A stretch of DNA of 64,000 nucleotides, from contig JASHNQ010000112.1 in NCBI GenBank assembly GCA_030041545.1, forward strand, positions 1 through 64,000, read 5' to 3'. This DNA is from a candidate division FCPU426 bacterium (GTDB lineage Bacteria; Oederibacteriota; Muellerivitia; Muellerivitales; Muellerivitaceae). Shown in pieces: positions 6,014-57,670 of this stretch (position 1 is its first letter; each line of letters starts with the position of its first letter). The notes under the pieces are model-generated. The model made no database searches. It worked only from the letters and a program-made list of their open reading frames with translations, and was not told the origin of the DNA. The position numbers were made by a program, and so were the translations under genes.

Positions 6014-6507
6014 ATGCCTCAAAATCCGTTAGCAGGGTTTCTCAAGGGCCTGTTTGGCCGCCCAACACACCCCTCCCCGCAGGCCCCCCCTATGCCGAGG
6101 CCACCAGCCGAGGCAAGAGTCTTGGGTGCATCGGAGCAAGTTGGAGGCTCCGATATCCCCCGGTCCCAGCCGACCCTCGAAACGCCCTCTTTAAATAAAA
6201 TAGTAGTACGCAGAAAGCCGTTACCCCACTCCCCACCTCCGAAGCCTACCTGAACCGCAAAAAAGGCCGGAAGAATTTCCGCGACAGTTACGCGGATGCA
6301 CGGAAGCTTTATGAGGGCATCCAGCGCAGGGGTGAGGCCTCGCCCGGGGACCTGGCCCAGGAATCGGGGATGGCCCGGAGTACCCTGGCCTACCACCTGA
6401 AACGGCTGGCCAAGTATGGCTACATTGAGCGCCTGGGCGGTGGCCGCAGCATCCGCTACCGGGCCACGGGAAAGCCCTTAGGCAGGATTGATGAAGGAAC
6501 CGTGTGA
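6014..6507 (+). pseudogene. Frameshifted winged-helix regulator
   Basis: ATG 6014 opens a frame encoding a Pro-rich N-terminus (MPQNPLAGFLKGLFGR...) that stops at 6253. The continuation is in another frame, open from 6199 to TGA 6507, and encodes a winged helix-turn-helix. Its core is DLAQESGMARSTLAYHLKRL followed by a wing YIERLGGGRSIRYRATG. The second frame has no ATG or GTG start, so the gene appears split by a frameshift between about 6199 and 6250. A truncated copy of its 3' part lies at 7586-7698. A sequencing error or a recoding event cannot be excluded. Confidence 0.6.
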
Positions 6508-16526: not shown

Positions 16527-16798
16527 ACCCTAAGATACTTTTGTTTTATCACTTCTGCCACCCTGATGACGTTGTTAGTGCTTGTCACTATACCGACCTT
16601 TGTGAGGGCCTGGCGGCGCGCGGCTATACCGAGTCCAACAAGATATCGGAAAAGTGGGCCGAGCCCAATAGTGATGCCATCGCAGGCTCCGGCATCCCGG
16701 CTCGGCACACACAAGGCACTCTCCTCGGCTTGAGGGCCTCGGAGAAGTGGGAAAGCCTGGCCCCGCTGTCACCATTGCCTATGGGTTTGTCCACCTGA
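16523..16798 (+). pseudogene. Truncated copy of the GT4 gene at 19014
   Basis: The first 34 residues (NPKILLFYHFCHPDDVVSAC then HYTDLCEGLAARGY) repeat the N-terminus of the glycosyltransferase at 19014. The frame then jumps to a segment matching the unusual internal insertion of that gene (AGSGIPARHTQG, then ALRAS-like) and stops at 16798. The rest of the enzyme is missing, so this is an internally deleted relic. Base composition becomes GC-rich from about 16610, marking the end of the AT-rich island. Confidence 0.7.
16652..16760. repeat. Two-hairpin repeat element, copy in the GT4 relic
   Basis: Hairpin 1 has an outer stem CCGAGCC/GGCTCGG and inner stem GATGCC/GGCATC. Hairpin 2 reads TCTCC-TC-GGC-loop-GCC-TC-GGAGA. 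The copy at 19805 has the same layout with different but complementary stems (CCGGGCC/GGCCCGG, GGTGCC/GGCACC, GCCCC/GGGGC). The loops and the ACAC-CAAGGC spacer are similar. This pattern of paired changes shows that base pairing is conserved. No transposase is nearby. Confidence 0.65.
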
Positions 16799-16848
16799 TG
16801 AAGTTCCAATATGGGCCGGTGTCCGCGCTCCTTTTCAATGGTTTGGGC

Positions 16849-16890
16849 TTGACACTGTCATAATCTAACAATTAAAGTTAAATTATGACA
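16849..16890 (+). promoter_or_regulatory. Promoter and inverted repeat overlapping the ATPase start
   Basis: TTGACA (16849-16854) is followed after 18 bp by TAAAGT (16873-16878). An inverted repeat, TGTCATAATCTAAC (16856-16869) and GTTAAATTATGACA (16877-16890), matches at 13 of 14 positions. It covers the promoter and includes the ATG of the ATPase gene. It may be an operator for self-control or an RNA hairpin that hides the start, because no normal ribosome-binding site is present. Confidence 0.5.
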
Positions 16891-18096
16891 CGGTACTTTC
16901 CCCGCGAAATGACCCCCCGCCTGCGGGAGGCCCTGGGCGAAATGCCGGTCGTGGTATTGACCGGACCGCGCCAGGCCGGGAAAAGCACCCTCCTCCAGAG
17001 GGACCCGGTTTTTCGCGGCAGGCGTTACGCCACCTTCGACGATTTGGCCACGCTGGAAGCCGCCCGGCGGGATCCGGAAACCTTCCTGGGGGAGGGGCCC
17101 CTGACCCTGGACGAGGCCCAACGGTTCCCGGAAATCCTGGTGGCGGTGAAGCGGGTGGTGGACCGTGCCCGGCGGCCCGGCGCCTTCTTATTGAGCGGTT
17201 CAGCCAATTTCCGCCTCCTGCGGGGCGTCTCGGAAAGCCTCGCGGGCCGGGCCGTCTACCTTGACCTCCAACCCTTCACGTCCCGCGAGACCGGCGGCAG
17301 GACGGCCCATCCGCCGGCGCTCCTGGGCTTGCTGGAGGGGAGGCCTCCCTTGGGGAAATTCCCGCCTTTTGATTTCGGGGCGGTGCTCAAGGGCGGCATG
17401 CCCAGCGTGGCCCTGGGGGAAGTGAAAAAACCCGGTATTTGGTTCCAAGGCTATGTCCAAACCTACCTGGAAAGGGACCTGAGGGACCTTCGGCACGTTG
17501 GCGACCTGGCGGCTTTCCGGCACCTGATGAGGTTAACCGCCTTGAGGAACGGCGGCATCCTGAAGGTTTCGGAACTGGCCCGGGACGCGAAGATGAACGT
17601 CATGACCTTATCCCGTTACCTTTCGTTGTTGGAGACATCCTTCCTGGTGCGGCGCCTGCCGCCTTATTTGGGAAACCAGGCGGTCCGCCTCGTTAAATCA
17701 CCCAAGCTTTATTTCACCGATTCCGGCTTGGCCGCCCACTTAGCGGGGATGGACGGCTCCGCGGCCGATCATCCCTTGAGGGGAGGGCTCCTGGAGAATT
17801 GGGTGGTCCAAAACCTGTTGGCCTTGTCCGAGGCCCATTTCGCGGATGCCGAGGGGGCCTACTGGAACATCCAAGGCCGTCATGAGGTAGATTTCGTCCT
17901 GGAGGCCGGCAAGCGGGTATTGGCCGTGGAGGTGAAGCAGGGGGCGATTTCCCGGGATGAGGATTTGAGGGGCCTGAAGGCCTTCCAGGACGCCCAAAAA
18001 GGGCCTGTGACCGGTATACTGGCCACCACGGGAAAGGAAACCTTGCCCCTGGGGAAGAATCTTTGGGCTGTTCCTATTCCGGCGCTGTTATCCTAA
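16885..18096 (+). CDS. AAA ATPase with DUF4143 domain
   Basis: The 403-residue protein has Walker A LTGPRQAGKSTLLQ (residues about 26-39) and Walker B GPLTLDEAQRFPE (about 72-82). An ALRNGGILKVSELARDAKMN helix-turn-helix-like part follows, then the C-terminal DUF4143 nuclease-like region, with LLENWVVQNLL and EVDFVLEAGKRVLAVEVKQG. The E-VD...E-K pattern recalls PD-(D/E)XK nucleases. These genes are common in mobile or rapidly turned-over regions and their function is unclear. The start lies inside an inverted repeat. Confidence 0.85.
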   Translation: MTRYFPREMTPRLREALGEMPVVVLTGPRQAGKSTLLQRDPVFRGRRYATFDDLATLEAARRDPETFLGEGPLTLDEAQRFPEILVAVKRVVDRARRPGAFLLSGSANFRLLRGVSESLAGRAVYLDLQPFTSRETGGRTAHPPALLGLLEGRPPLGKFPPFDFGAVLKGGMPSVALGEVKKPGIWFQGYVQTYLERDLRDLRHVGDLAAFRHLMRLTALRNGGILKVSELARDAKMNVMTLSRYLSLLETSFLVRRLPPYLGNQAVRLVKSPKLYFTDSGLAAHLAGMDGSAADHPLRGGLLENWVVQNLLALSEAHFADAEGAYWNIQGRHEVDFVLEAGKRVLAVEVKQGAISRDEDLRGLKAFQDAQKGPVTGILATTGKETLPLGKNLWAVPIPALLS

Positions 18097-18147
18097 AACC
18101 CGTAATCCGCTTTTCTGCGAAAATTGCAAAAAATAGGCCATTTACCC

Positions 18148-18381
18148 CGTTAAAAGCTTTTTTCTTTTCGGCCCACGCGGCACGGGCAAGCCCACATGGG
18201 CGAAGCGGATATTTCCCGGGGCCCATCGGATCGATTTGCTCCAATCCAACGTCTTCCGGGCCTACGCCGCCCGTCCCGAACGCCTCAAGGAAGCGGTTGG
18301 TGCCGCCGGAATGGAACGGACCGTCGTCATTGACGAAGTCCGGAAGGTTCCAGCCCTGCAGCCGATGATCCATCCGCCTTG
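18148..18381 (+). pseudogene. Remnant of a second AAA/DUF4143-type ATPase
   Basis: A frame open from 18148 to TGA 18381 encodes an N-terminal ATPase fragment. It reads KSFFLFGPRGTGKPTW, a Walker A in which the usual Ser/Thr after Lys is Pro, then DLLQSNVFRAYAARPERLKE and a Walker B VVIDEVRKVP. There is no start codon and the protein ends right after Walker B. The sequence differs from the intact ATPase upstream, so it is a separate decayed gene. The altered Walker A supports loss of function. Confidence 0.65.
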
Positions 18382-18394
18382 AAGGATGAAAATC

Positions 18395-19013
18395 ATGCCT
18401 AAAGTTCTTATCCTTTATCACTACGGATTCGACTCCCTTCGGTCGCCCACCGCAGGCTACCCTGATAAGGTGAAGGACAAGCTATGAAAATCCTTGTCCT
18501 TTATCATTATTACAGCCCGGATGATGTGGCACCCATTCTTACAATTGGAATGGGTACCCCCAAATCGTATGCCTCGGCTGGTGGCCTTGGCACAGGGAAA
18601 CATCATCTGGACTCGATAAAGGACGGCGACGCCTAAAATTCTTGTCCTTTATCATTATTACCGGCCAGATGATGTGGCACCCATTCCTGCAATGGGAATG
18701 GGTGCCCCCAAATCGTATGCCTCGGCTGGTGGCCTTGGCACAGGGAAACATCATCTGGACTTGATAAAGGACGGCGATGCCTAAAATTCTTGTCCTTTAT
18801 CATTACTACAGTCCAGATGATGTGGCACCCATTCCTGCAATGGGAATGGGTACCCCCAAATCGTATGCCTCGGCTGGTGGCCTTGGCACAGGGAAACATC
18901 ATCTGGACTTGATAAAGGACGGCGATGCCTAAAATTCTTGTCCTTTATCATTACGGATTCGACTCCCTTCGGTCGCTCACCGCAGGCTACCCTGATAAGG
19001 TAAAGGACAAGCT
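18395..19013. repeat. Tandem palindromic array of glycosyltransferase 5' ends
   Basis: Five units precede the gene at 19014 and each starts with a copy of its 5' end (AAATTCTTGTCCTTTATCAT and variants). Type A units: 18395-18483 and 18931-19013. Type B units: 18484-18634 (151 bp), 18635-18782 and 18783-18930 (148 bp each). Each unit folds back. GTCCTTTATCA pairs with TGATAAAGGAC. In B units AGTCCAGATGATGT pairs with ACATCATCTGG-ACT. The B units enclose two more hairpins (CCCATTCC/GGAATGGG and TGCC-TC-GGC/GCC-TT-GGCA). The A units enclose the GATTCGACTCCCTTCGG repeat. Confidence 0.85.
18484..18636 (+). CDS. Mini-ORF of repeat unit B1
   Basis: ATG 18484 opens 50 codons beginning MKILVLYHYYSPDDV, identical to the N-terminus of the enzyme at 19014. 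Repeat-encoded residues follow (GMGTPKSYASAGGLGTGKHH), then TAA. Its ATG overlaps the TGA of a similar 30-codon frame starting at 18395. A related 51-codon frame runs from ATG 18777 to TAA 18931. Unit B2 has ACG in place of ATG. It may be translated, but could be only a by-product of repeat growth. Confidence 0.3.
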   Translation: MKILVLYHYYSPDDVAPILTIGMGTPKSYASAGGLGTGKHHLDSIKDGDA

Positions 19014-19017
19014 ATGA
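18925..19017 (+). CDS. Mini-ORF directly coupled to the GT4 gene
   Basis: ATG 18925 opens 30 codons, MPKILVLYHYGFDSLRSLTA and so on, ending at TGA 19015-19017, which overlaps ATG 19014 of the glycosyltransferase (ATGA). Its own start overlaps the TAA of the preceding B3 frame. If translated it would couple the array to the downstream enzyme. Only the frame structure supports it. Confidence 0.35.
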   Translation: MPKILVLYHYGFDSLRSLTAGYPDKVKDKL

Positions 19018-20357
19018 AAATCCTTGTCCTTTATCATTATTACAGTCCAGATGATGTGGTCTCCGCGCGGCATTACACCGACCTTTGTGAGGGCCTGGTT
19101 CAACGAAATTGGGAAGTCGAAGTCTGGCCGGGAAACCGGGCCTGCCATCCCCCTTCGCAAAAACCCACTAACGTAGAGCTTCGGGGGACAGGCCGGGCTT
19201 CAAACCCATATTCCACCCAACCTGGGATGATCAACGGGGTGATGGTAAAGCGGGTTTGGCGGCCTCCTTTGAGCCAACATTCCGCCTTCGGCCGCATCGC
19301 CAATTCCCTCTGGCTCCAAAGGGCCTGGAAAAACCGGCTGAAATCCTCTTCCTATGCCCCGGACGTGATCCTGATCGGCACCGACCCGGTGTTGGCCCTT
19401 TCCTGCGCGCCCGCACTGAAAGCCCTGAGGCCCAAGGCCAAGATCGTCCATTGGTGCTTCGACCTTTACCCCGAAGCCGCGGTGGCGGACGGCGCGGTGG
19501 GGGAGGGAAGCACGCTGGTGAGGATGGCCCGGGAGCGCATGGCCAAGGGTTACGCGGCCTGCGACCTGGTGGCGGATTTGGGACCCTGCATGAAAGAAAA
19601 ACTAAAAAGTTACCAAGCGAAAAAGGGTGAAACGTTGACGCCCTGGGCCCTTAAGGAACCAGAAGAGCCGCTCCCATTCAACAAGGACGAACGCAAGGAT
19701 CTTTTCGGCGAGGCTTCCTTGGGTCTGCTTTACTCGGGCAGTTTCGGCCGGGCCCACGAATTCTACATGACCCTAAAACTGGCCCAAAGGATGAAGGAAG
19801 ACTTAGCCGGGCCCGGTGATGGTGCCTCCGCGGGCTCCGGCACCTCGGCCCGGCACACCCAAGGCTTGCCCCTCGACGCGAGGGCCTCGGGGCAGGGGGC
19901 TATTTTCTGTTACGCGGCGAGGGGAAGCCGCATGGAGGCGCTCCGGAAAGCCCGTAACCCCGAATACACCAACGTGCGCTTCGGATCCTTCGCCGCCGAG
20001 GAAAAGCTGGAGGCGCGGCTGGCGGCTCCCGACGTGCACCTGGTTTCCTTAAGGCCCGAGTGGGCCGGCATCGTGGTTCCTTCGAAGTTCTTCGGCGCAT
20101 TAGCCGTGGGCCGGCCCGTTTTGTTCGAGGGCCCCGGGGATTCGGATGTGGCGCTTTGGATCAAGGAATACGGGGTGGGCTGGGTCTTGACCCATGACAA
20201 CCTGGAGGAGGTCCGGGAAGACCTGTTGAAGTTCGCCAGGAGCCCCCAACAGAAAAGCGATATGTTCAACCGGTGCCACGAAGTTTACCAAGCCCACTTT
20301 TCAAGAGCCGCTGTGATCTCCCATTGGGATGAGGAACTTCGATCCCTCTTGTCTTAA
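19014..20357 (+). CDS. Glycosyltransferase family 4 with an in-frame repeat insertion
   Basis: The 447-residue GT-B enzyme starts MKILVLYHYYSPDDVVSARH. Later conserved parts are IVHWCFDLYPEAAVADGA, LGLLYSGSFGRAHEF, then FCYAARGSRMEALRKAR, DVHLVSLRPEWAGIVVPSKF and ALAVGRPVLFEGP. Between residues about 265 and 297, GPGDGASAGSGTSARHTQG and following Ala/Gly-rich residues interrupt the fold. This stretch is encoded by the two-hairpin repeat also found at 16652. The reading frame continues through it, so the enzyme may still work. The ATG overlaps the last mini-ORF of the tandem array. Confidence 0.85.
   Translation: MKILVLYHYYSPDDVVSARHYTDLCEGLVQRNWEVEVWPGNRACHPPSQKPTNVELRGTGRASNPYSTQPGMINGVMVKRVWRPPLSQHSAFGRIANSLWLQRAWKNRLKSSSYAPDVILIGTDPVLALSCAPALKALRPKAKIVHWCFDLYPEAAVADGAVGEGSTLVRMARERMAKGYAACDLVADLGPCMKEKLKSYQAKKGETLTPWALKEPEEPLPFNKDERKDLFGEASLGLLYSGSFGRAHEFYMTLKLAQRMKEDLAGPGDGASAGSGTSARHTQGLPLDARASGQGAIFCYAARGSRMEALRKARNPEYTNVRFGSFAAEEKLEARLAAPDVHLVSLRPEWAGIVVPSKFFGALAVGRPVLFEGPGDSDVALWIKEYGVGWVLTHDNLEEVREDLLKFARSPQQKSDMFNRCHEVYQAHFSRAAVISHWDEELRSLLS
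19805..19905. repeat. Two-hairpin repeat inserted in frame in the GT4 gene
   Basis: The insert contains hairpin 1 (GCCGGGCC/GGCCCGGC outside, GGTGCC/GGCACC inside), the spacer ACACCCAAGGCT, and hairpin 2 (TGCCCC-TC-GAC-loop-GCC-TC-GGGGCA). Compared with the copy at 16652 the stems differ by compensatory changes. It adds about 33 codons between MKEDL and FCYAARG without a stop or frameshift. Confidence 0.65.
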
Positions 20358-21973: not shown

Positions 21974-22011
21974 CTGCTTGTCCACGATGGGGAACCATCG
22001 TGGACAAGCAG
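21974..22011. repeat. Perfect 17-bp inverted repeat (GTCCACGATGG type)
   Basis: CTGCTTGTCCACGATGG (21974-21990) pairs perfectly with CCATCGTGGACAAGCAG (21995-22011) around a GGAA loop. It follows the solute-binding gene but has no T-run. Related copies lie at 22951 (left half only) and 23559-23590, so it behaves as a small local repeat family. A Rho-independent terminator is unlikely. Confidence 0.7.
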
Positions 22012-22295: not shown

Positions 22296-22540
22296 CATCC
22301 TGGCAGCTCCAAACCGCCAAGGCCCGGTTCAGTGAACTGATCCGAACAGTGAAAACCAAGGGCCCCCAATCCATTACCCTTCACGGGCATGAGGAGGCCG
22401 TCGTGATCTCGAAAAAAGACTACGACCGCCTGAAAAAAGCGAAACCCAACCTTGTTGAATTCTTCCGGAATTCCCCCTTTCACGGCGTTGACCTGAAGAT
22501 CCAACGGAACAAGTCCGTTTCCCGTAAGGTGGAATTTTGA
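22292..22540 (+). CDS. Phd/YefM-family antitoxin
   Basis: The 82-residue protein has the Phd/YefM N-terminus WQLQTAKARFSELIRTVKTK, followed by GPQSITLHGHEEAVVISKKD, which is the DNA-binding and dimerisation core. The C-terminal part should wrap the toxin. ATG 22292 has GGAGG six bases upstream, so it is better than the in-frame GTG at 22280. Its TGA overlaps the TTG start of the PIN gene. Confidence 0.88.
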   Translation: MTSWQLQTAKARFSELIRTVKTKGPQSITLHGHEEAVVISKKDYDRLKKAKPNLVEFFRNSPFHGVDLKIQRNKSVSRKVEF

Positions 22541-22950
22541 ATTACCTTTTGGATACCAACATCCTTTCTGAGCTTTTCAAAAAACACCCAGAGCCTAAAG
22601 TGACCCATTGGTTGAAGGAAGCGGAGCAGGAATCACTTTTCCTGAGCGTTTTGACGGTGGGAGAAATCCGTAAGGGGATTGAAAGGATGGAACAGGGGTC
22701 CCGAAAGGCCCGCCTCATCCAATTCCTGGAGAAAGACCTTTCGGCGCAATTCGAGGGAAGGATACTGCCCATTGACCTGGAAGTGTCCGAAACCTGGGGT
22801 CTATTGGAAGCCCAGGCGGGCCGGCCCATTCCGACGGTGGATACTCTCCTAGCCGCTACGGCCCTCGTCCACAATCTCACCTTGGTTACCCGAAACATCC
22901 AAGATTTTGGCTTTTCGAAATTGAAACTTCTGAATCTTTGGGACGAATAA
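22537..22950 (+). CDS. PIN-domain toxin (VapC/FitB-like)
   Basis: The 137-residue PIN ribonuclease begins at a TTG overlapping the antitoxin stop (TTGA). Its metal-binding acids are in YLLDTNILSELF (Asp6), LTVGEIRKGIERM (Glu about 46), PTVDTLLAATAL (Asp about 104) and LTLVTRNIQDFGF. The length is normal for the family and, unlike the two PIN proteins at 5252 and 6893, it has no C-terminal basic tail. Its partner is the Phd/YefM protein. Confidence 0.9.
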   Translation: MNYLLDTNILSELFKKHPEPKVTHWLKEAEQESLFLSVLTVGEIRKGIERMEQGSRKARLIQFLEKDLSAQFEGRILPIDLEVSETWGLLEAQAGRPIPTVDTLLAATALVHNLTLVTRNIQDFGFSKLKLLNLWDE

Positions 22951-23665: not shown

Positions 23666-24417
23666 ATGGGGTCAGCCCGGAAATCCGCGAAAGCCTTTGA
23701 CCGACTGAAAAGCGGAGCCATTCCAGCCTATATCCGTACCCCACTCCCGAACAGATCCCCCGGAAGATACGGCTGGACAATGTCGTGCGGGATAGGAGTT
23801 GGTAGGCGAACTAACAAAGCATCGGGCAGGAGATCAAAGCCAACCCAAACCCAGGGGCGGCCCGGTTGAAGGTGGATAGGATGAAGGTTAACCGGGTCAT
23901 GAGGATATTGGGGGTCCTCAATGAGGCCGCCCGGAGGCTGGTTTTAGAGAATCTCCAAAAGTCCAGGGAAAGCCAGGAATCCGAGGGCCAGGTTTTGGAG
24001 AATCCCTAAAAACCGTTGGATAGCAGGTTCCTTCCCGGGATGCGGTTTTAGAGAATCTCCAAAAGTCCAGGAAAAGCCAGGAATCTGAGGGCCAGGTTTT
24101 GGAGAATCTCCAAAACTAGGGGGTAACCCGGCCCCTCCCCGGAACCGGTTTTTGAGAATCTCAAAAAGCCAGGGAATAGCCCGGTTTCCCAGGGCATGGA
24201 TTTTGAGAGTCTCAAAAAAACGGGGGGTAGCCCGGCCCTCTCTCAAAAACCGGATTTTGAGAGTCCCAAAAAGCCAGGGGATAGCCCTGCCTCCCGGGGC
24301 ATGGATTTTGAGAGTCTCAAAAAAGCGGTAACCAACTGGCTCATCAGCGAGAACGCCCTATTTCGGTTGACCGACCTCCACTCATGGCGGGCCGCCGTGG
24401 ACAAATATCTCAAATAA
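23666..24417 (+). pseudogene. Decayed repeat-rich gene
   Basis: Coding-like segments occur in changing frames. AFDRLKSGAIP (about 23691) is followed in another frame by LYPYPTPEQIPRKIRLDNVV, then IGQEIKANPNPGAARLKVDR and RVMRILGVLNEAARRLVLEN. Last comes an intact stretch, 24196-24417, with DFESLKK repeats ending NALFRLTDLHSWRAAVDKYL. Stops interrupt between them (for example TAG in the 23805 region and TAA at about 24007). I do not recognise the family. The pattern of Leu/Arg helices followed by short repeats suggests one former protein. Confidence 0.5.
23938..24330. repeat. Tandem degenerate repeats with TTTTGAGA/TCTCAAAA palindromes
   Basis: About seven units of roughly 50-65 bp each contain a small palindrome that drifts from TTTTAGAGAATCTCCAAAA to TTTTGAGAGTCTCAAAA. 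Each is followed by a GC-rich link such as GCCAGGGGATAGCC. In the last three units the reading frame encodes DFES-L/P-KK plus a Gly/Ser/Pro link, so the repeat was probably coding. Confidence 0.7.
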
Positions 24418-33251: not shown

Positions 33252-33574
33252 TTCACCACGAAGACACCCAGACACAAAGAACGGTTGAAAAGAAAAAGGG
33301 TTCATAAAATCGAAAATAAGATTTAGGACCCGTAACAAAACCCTGTTTTTAAGAAATATCTCCCTCTCCCTTGAGGGGAGAGGGACGGGGTGAGGGTGGC
33401 AACCGAAGGGTTTTCCACACCCCTCACCGGGTTCGACTCCCTTCGGTCGCTCACCGCAAGCCTACCCTCCTGCCCTGAGGCTCTCGAAGGGCTCCCGCAA
33501 GGGGTGAGGGTCTGCGGAGGTTTTGTTAGAGTCTCTTAGCCTTGCTCGGTGTCTTTGTGCCTTGGTGGTTCAAA
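33252..33574. repeat. Nested repeats splitting the atp operon
   Basis: The outer part is a CACGAAG palindrome: CACCACGAAGACACC (33253) and GGTGTCTTTGTGCCTTGGTG (33549). Within it, 33333-33538 is a MITE-like element also found at 57524. It begins TAACAAAACCCTG and ends GTTTTGTTAGAGTCTCT. Into this element a GGGTTCGACTCCCTTCGG repeat of about 60 bp (about 33429-33489) is inserted, because the copy at 57524 lacks it. No gene is present in this gap. Confidence 0.75.
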
Positions 33575-57523: not shown

Positions 57524-57670
57524 TAACAAAACCCTGTTTTTAAGGAATATCTCCCTCTCCCTTGAGGGGAAAGGGATGGGGTGAGGGTGGCCAACTGCAG
57601 GGTTTTCCACACCCCTCACCCTCTCCCGCAAGGGGCTAGGGTCTGCGGCGGTTTTGTTAGAGTCTCTAAG
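57524..57670. repeat. MITE-like element with TCTAACAAAAC ends
   Basis: The ends TCTAACAAAAC (57522) and GTTTTGTTAGA (57651) are inverted repeats of 11 bp. Between them are CCCTCTCCCTTGAGGGGAAA, CCCCTCACC and GGGCTAGGG stems. A second copy at 33333-33538 matches closely and carries an extra internal repeat. No transposase is present. Two heptamer tracts (57424-57460) lie just upstream. Confidence 0.75.

Follow-up and report, generated by a model that had tools for sequence, protein, structure and literature searches.

A small palindromic element occurs in roughly 130 interspersed copies across one bacterial family of the candidate division FCPU426. It consists of a first hairpin followed by a covarying, clamped second hairpin, is present at given sites in some orthologs and missing from the same sites in others, and lies in frame within genes that include those for IleRS and DnaE. 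We consider it likely, at a probability of about two in three, that this is a family-specific, nonautonomous mobile element of ~60 to 95 nt that moved as single-stranded DNA in folded form, with its clamp triplet pairing with the insertion flank. We found no account of such an element among the open-licence papers listed for FCPU426, Rickettsia palindromic elements, and related topics.

Element plan, copies in the window, and distribution

We analyzed a stretch of 64,000 nt from the source genome (G000), here called the window. Comparison of its copies with the units of a tandem array gave a common plan, in which hairpin 1 and a short ACA-like spacer precede a core of 39 to 40 nt that forms hairpin 2. 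The core is laid out as NNC-AARNC-5 bp-TC-3 bp-loop-3 bp-TC-5 bp-A-GNN, i.e., a 3-bp clamp, CAARNC, a 5-bp stem, a TC/TC mismatch, a 3-bp stem, and the loop. NNC and GNN, the outer triplets, pair with each other, and the clamp that they form is a third helix, which joins the triplet whose last base is the C of CAARNC to the triplet at the 3′ end of the element. Hairpin 1 is branched and ~49 nt long in type A copies and simple and shorter in type B copies; its stem score reached 8 or more in 74 of 108 copies versus 18 of 626 control windows. The unpaired features of the core are also kept, CAA in 71 and the TC/TC mismatch in 68 of the 82 cores that are 39 nt long. The features in the window, including a host gene for a glycosyltransferase (GT), are as follows.

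6088-6154, minus strand: type B copy outside the array, core 6088-6126
16658-16749, plus strand: type A copy 1; branched hairpin 1 at 16658-16706, ACA, core 16710-16749
18395-19013, plus strand: tandem array of 148-nt units, each combining a repeated GT gene start with a type B copy and an inverted GT start
18528-18597, plus strand: type B copy of array unit 1; simple hairpin 1 and core 18559-18597
18676-18745, plus strand: type B copy of array unit 2, core 18707-18745
18824-18893, plus strand: type B copy of array unit 3, core 18855-18893
19014-20357, plus strand: glycosyltransferase-4-like gene, 447 aa, host of type A copy 2
19806-19897, plus strand: type A copy 2, in frame within the GT; branched hairpin 1 at 19806-19854, ACA, core 19858-19897

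An earlier, sequence-only reading of the window had placed the type A copies at 16652 and 19805, within 6 nt of the positions given here. The differing stem pairs that it quoted (CCGAGCC/GGCTCGG versus CCGGGCC/GGCCCGG, GATGCC/GGCATC versus GGTGCC/GGCACC, and TCTCC/GGAGA versus GCCCC/GGGGC) are correct, and the second hairpin that it saw in the array is common to all three units; the minus-strand copy at 6088, the clamp helix and its match to the insertion flank, and the argument for DNA from the pairing pattern were absent from it. Type A copy 1 sits within a relic of a GT start. The array units form long imperfect palindromes (fold z-scores of −3.9 and −7.2), and the array looks like the outcome of template-switch copying followed by tandem duplication.

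Some copies contain an additional hairpin module (CCC..GGGCGAT..ATCG) between hairpin 1 and the core (L035, upstream of and including the core at 1501-1540 on the minus strand; L053, 1881-1919; L072; L068; and L081). The module is missing from the orthologous copy L076 in G002, and modules therefore insert into the element itself. The window also holds a 34-nt repeat (CGGATTCGACTCCCTTCGGTCGC..) at 18424, 18954, and 33428; 30-nt palindromic repeats (CTTGTCCACGATGGGGAACCATCGTGGACA) at 21977, 22952, and 23559, around a 137-aa open reading frame (22537-22950); and a 104-nt unit in four degenerate tandem copies (23940-24355).

A first covariance model, made from nine cores, gave 22 matches in the source genome at E ≤ 1 and 20 at E < 1e−4; six of these 20 copies lie in the window. 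Among 59 relatives searched with the same model, seven genomes of the same family yielded 108 matches, and one weak match in a genome outside the family (G012) was discounted. The further copies expected from the sequence-only reading were thus found in large numbers, both in the genome and in its relatives. With a second model of 74 cores and a threshold of E ≤ 1e−4, there were 130 matches in all eight family genomes (G000, 20; G001, 15; G002, 7; G003, 49; G004, 1; G005, 8; G006, 28; and G007, 2) and none in 37 nonfamily genomes of candidate phylum FCPU426, one of them from the same order. Shallow scoring of 384 genomes (17 candidates per genome) matched eight, all from this family. A pattern scan of named genomes, with a pattern that fits only 9 of the 110 known copies, produced six matches, each of them from candidate division FCPU426. 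IMG/VR, scanned by pattern, yielded none, and spread by viruses was set aside.

Filled and empty sites, reading frames, and insertion flanks

The element is mobile, as the same site is filled in some orthologs and empty in others. A type A copy occupies the same site in the GT genes of G000 (the window) and G003, while the G001 ortholog has its type A copy at another site and those of G004 and G005 carry none. Measured from stop to stop, the two orthologs without a segment are 409 and 410 aa long and the three with one are 452, 454, and 460 aa long; the segment is therefore not a shared part of the enzyme. In a helicase-nuclease gene (UvrD-helicase/PD-(D/E)XK nuclease by Pfam), type B copies occupy three sites in G005, G006, and G007, with each copy missing from the other two genomes. 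A class I tRNA synthetase gene (Pfam tRNA-synt_1; by our own reading, IleRS) carries a copy in G002, and this copy is lacking in six other genomes with the gene. Likewise, a copy in the gene for DNA polymerase III alpha (DnaE; Pfam) is private to G001 and absent in seven others, and a third gene has a copy in G000 that four others are without. The inserts in all of these genes (GT, helicase-nuclease, IleRS, DnaE, and the third gene) keep the frame. Together with the genome-wide copies and the covariation described below, these empty sites support the proposal, made from the window alone, that the two-hairpin element is mobile, carries compensatory changes, and is tolerated as an in-frame insertion.

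The helicase-nuclease gene of G007 (L126) also has a different in-frame insert (PSPLGGEGRVRG.. in translation), to which two repeats of the kind CTCCCTTGAGGGG in the window (33333-33400 and 57524-57591) look related. Separately, the GT of the window has ~15 further residues (19143-19205) that are missing in four orthologs; the DNA there looks palindromic and is perhaps a remnant of another insertion.

To evaluate reading frames across all copies, we applied a codon-usage score, trained on the genes of the window, to the flanks. Both flanks scored as coding in 22 of the 107 copies having two usable flanks, and in 17 of the 22, though not in the other 5, a single strand and frame continue across the copy (P = 3e−5 by a binomial test against one third); these 17 copies are not fully independent, because one shared site (the GT of G000 and G003) is included. 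In-frame copies were found on either strand of the genes and use several frames. Neither flank scored as coding in 53 copies, and about half of the copies are therefore probably intergenic. By alignment, the copy in the GT adds 32 to 33 residues, in agreement with the ~33 first estimated. An AlphaFold2 model of the window GT, made with five sequences and of modest confidence (mean pLDDT, 65.6), predicts the insert as a disordered loop (residues 265 to 294) between a helix and a strand, with two 10-residue blocks at 23 and 28. In the frame used, the insert would be translated as a flexible linker peptide, which may be why copies persist in genes, and selection would remove insertions that break the frame.

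We also compared the flanks of filled and empty sites. In IleRS, the uninterrupted site of G000 has a single CAGGTGG, and the copy in G002 is flanked by this sequence on each side. The copy in the helicase gene of G005 is flanked by GACCGTA in the same way, and the empty site in G007 reads GACCGAA. The 3′ triplet of the clamp (GGT in IleRS and GAC in the helicase gene) falls within the flank repeat, and its partner triplet (ACC and GTC, respectively) falls within the element. Of 81 copies, 12 have the 3′ triplet again in the left flank at offset −4 (5.0 expected; 0 of 300 shuffles) and 8 have it at offset −5 (3.4 expected). Flank repeats are clear in few copies, measuring 7 nt in the two clean cases, and their register varies; a signal of fixed-register flank identity had a z-score of 4.4 as the best of 221 offsets. 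Exact flank repeats of at least 6 nt were not above chance (5 of 87 copies versus 5.3 expected), and a target duplication of fixed length was rejected on this ground. An outer stem that encloses the whole element, as in the array, is not general either (best z-score of 132 offsets, 2.05). Overall, the flanks lend moderate support to guide-like pairing of the clamp triplet with the insertion flank, which falls short of proof.

In the mechanism that we propose, the element would move as a folded single DNA strand recognized by an enzyme of the host or of the element, and the conserved TC/TC mismatch and CAARNC would be the features recognized. The clamp triplet might serve as a guide by pairing with the 3′ flank, and since these triplets vary, variants with different triplets might sit at different targets. 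A bolder version, in which a hairpin with its own variable guide triplet is maintained purely as single-stranded DNA, is moved by an enzyme outside the known hairpin transposases, and adds peptides to core enzymes throughout the family, is conceivable, and we hold it to be rather doubtful.

The same features can be read as those of a REP-like or IS200/IS605-derived element mobilized by a Y1 (HUH) transposase. Such an element would have two hairpins and a stem mismatch, and excerpts of the literature on IS608 (PMC5934647) and REP (PMC8266576) likewise describe a triplet 5′ of the hairpin foot that pairs with a triplet 3′ of the foot. However, the element ends are not enriched in GTAG or CGTC, and Y1_Tnp had no match at E 1e−6 in G001, G002, or G003, which hold 15, 7, and 49 copies, respectively. 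Copy number is therefore not tied to a Y1 transposase, the copy-richest genome being without one, and the enzyme was rejected as a partner; our consideration of Y1 transposases and tyrosine recombinases yielded no mobilizing enzyme. We regard this origin as improbable, if still worth keeping in view.

Pair covariation and the level of folding

Pairs were counted in an ungapped alignment of 74 cores. This set leaves out 21 cores of 40 nt, four of 38 nt, and two of 39 nt with a shifted layout (L049 and L103), and one 35-nt core had been dropped earlier. A MAFFT alignment of 101 cores, in which the length gap fell outside the loop, was kept out of the counts. Standard pairs made up 93.9% of the 814 pair cells, compared to 68.6% in shuffles and 47.6% at most when the partner was slid. 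Double changes are present at all 11 core pairs and account for 193 cells (46.8 in shuffles), and one-sided changes account for only 12. The clamp is 94.6% paired, and its outer position shows five types of standard pair. Covariation, first suspected from matched differences between two copies, therefore lies far beyond chance by both controls. Part of it probably arose in place and not during movement, because some sites hold a copy in several genomes (the GT site in G000 and G003, and a site in another gene in G000, G003, and G006), and the stems of these copies are altered, with broken pairs as well as double changes.

Such changes in place, like the double changes without intermediates, would also be produced if DNA template switching recopied one arm from the other during replication, the element being spread by the same errors and its pairing being under no selection. 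Template switching is described as a source of double changes in RNA genes in an excerpt of one study (PMC8794818), and the inverted GT gene start on the other side of the element in the array fits such events. Nevertheless, the conserved unpaired CAA and TC/TC require selection or recent common ancestry, dispersed insertion in eight genomes is left unexplained, and the outer stem is generally not extended. As an alternative to a mobile element, template switching thus seems unlikely to us.

Structured RNAs tolerate G·U pairs and mostly do not tolerate A·C mismatches, and counting G·T against A·C is therefore a simple means of asking whether a covarying palindrome acts as DNA or as RNA. After 7 of 110 records were dropped and duplicates were merged, 97 distinct cores remained, with 25 G·T and 33 A·C among 1,067 pair cells. 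For comparison, the acceptor and T stems of 30 tRNAs, out of 41 found in the source genome, had 14 G·T and 1 A·C among 360 cells (P = 4e−4 by Fisher's test for the element against the tRNAs). Unlike in tRNAs, G·T is not favored over A·C in the element, so the structure looks to be a DNA-level one. This argues that it is constrained, or copied, at the level of DNA, although mismatches of both kinds in decayed copies could dilute a former preference for G·T. Strong covariation and conserved loops would also be expected of a duplicated structured RNA (a regulatory element or a noncoding RNA). Besides the absent G·U preference, however, the copies lie on both strands of coding genes, in many unrelated genes, and are without an Rfam match: there were no matches in the window and only two chance-level matches, below the gathering score, among six loci. 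We consider an RNA origin very unlikely.

An attC-like target of a tyrosine recombinase, as in integrons, is the least credible source: on contig 26 of G000, a tandem pair of tyrosine recombinase genes has two copies of the element as neighbors, but close relatives of these recombinases adjoin no other copy among the loci examined, and RYYYAAC/GTTRRRY, the end motifs of attC sites, are missing from the core consensus. With an association at one locus only, the recombinase was rejected as a partner. At this locus (L213, 7673-9769), one copy precedes the first recombinase gene, and the second copy encodes the C-terminal residues of the first recombinase and overlaps the start of the second gene.

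Comparison with known palindromic elements

Palindromes that dwell in genes are a striking feature of Rickettsia and of some REP-bearing genomes, and the FCPU426 element is an independent case in another phylum, where insertion into core genes is seen directly by comparing orthologous sites with and without the element. Like MITEs, the element is small, nonautonomous, and present in many copies. It differs from them in that its two flanks or ends generally do not pair with each other, that no parent transposon was found, and that there is no exact target duplication of fixed length over 87 copies.

Rickettsia palindromic elements are described, in an excerpt of one source (PMC10969869), as short palindromic repeats of ~150 bp in unrelated genes, often in frame and adding tens of residues; some of them are reported to end in CGTC in R. 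conorii, according to part of another (PMC3733652). Going by these accounts, the FCPU426 element is also palindromic and in frame in unrelated protein genes but is 60 to 95 nt long, has a two-part fold, a clamp, and a TC/TC mismatch, and belongs to another phylum. CGTC/GACG is about as frequent at its ends as in control windows. The likeness to Rickettsia palindromic elements that had been drawn from the window therefore holds for the way of living and not for membership, as the tag, the architecture, and the lineage all differ.

REP sequences are dispersed palindromes recognized as single-stranded DNA, with a stem mismatch, some of which lie within recB and repair genes, in the excerpts of PMC3733652 and PMC8266576. 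To that extent, the FCPU426 element resembles REP/BIME sequences with RAYT (TnpA-REP), being a dispersed palindrome with a stem mismatch that is also found within genes. In contrast to them, it lacks the GTAG tag, which stood near the 5′ end of a single copy and near the 3′ end of a single copy among 93, and its copy-richest genome is without a Y1 transposase. We therefore do not class it as REP, given the missing GTAG/CGTC tags and a copy number that is not tied to Y1.

The ends of IS200/IS605 elements and their nonautonomous derivatives offer a further likeness. In IS608, as an excerpt of one report has it, a guide lying 5′ of a hairpin foot forms pairs with cleavage and target sites, the cleavage site being 3′ of the foot, and changing the guide can change the target (PMC5934647). 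The covarying 3-bp clamp of the FCPU426 element stands in the position that such a guide would have, as far as that excerpt describes it. The element differs in its variable triplets, in the apparent short flank duplication of two clean cases, and in having no linked transposase; IS200/IS605 elements insert 3′ of a fixed target tetranucleotide and are not known to duplicate their target. If its clamp is a guide, natural variation would supply many pairs of guide and target with which to test the rule.
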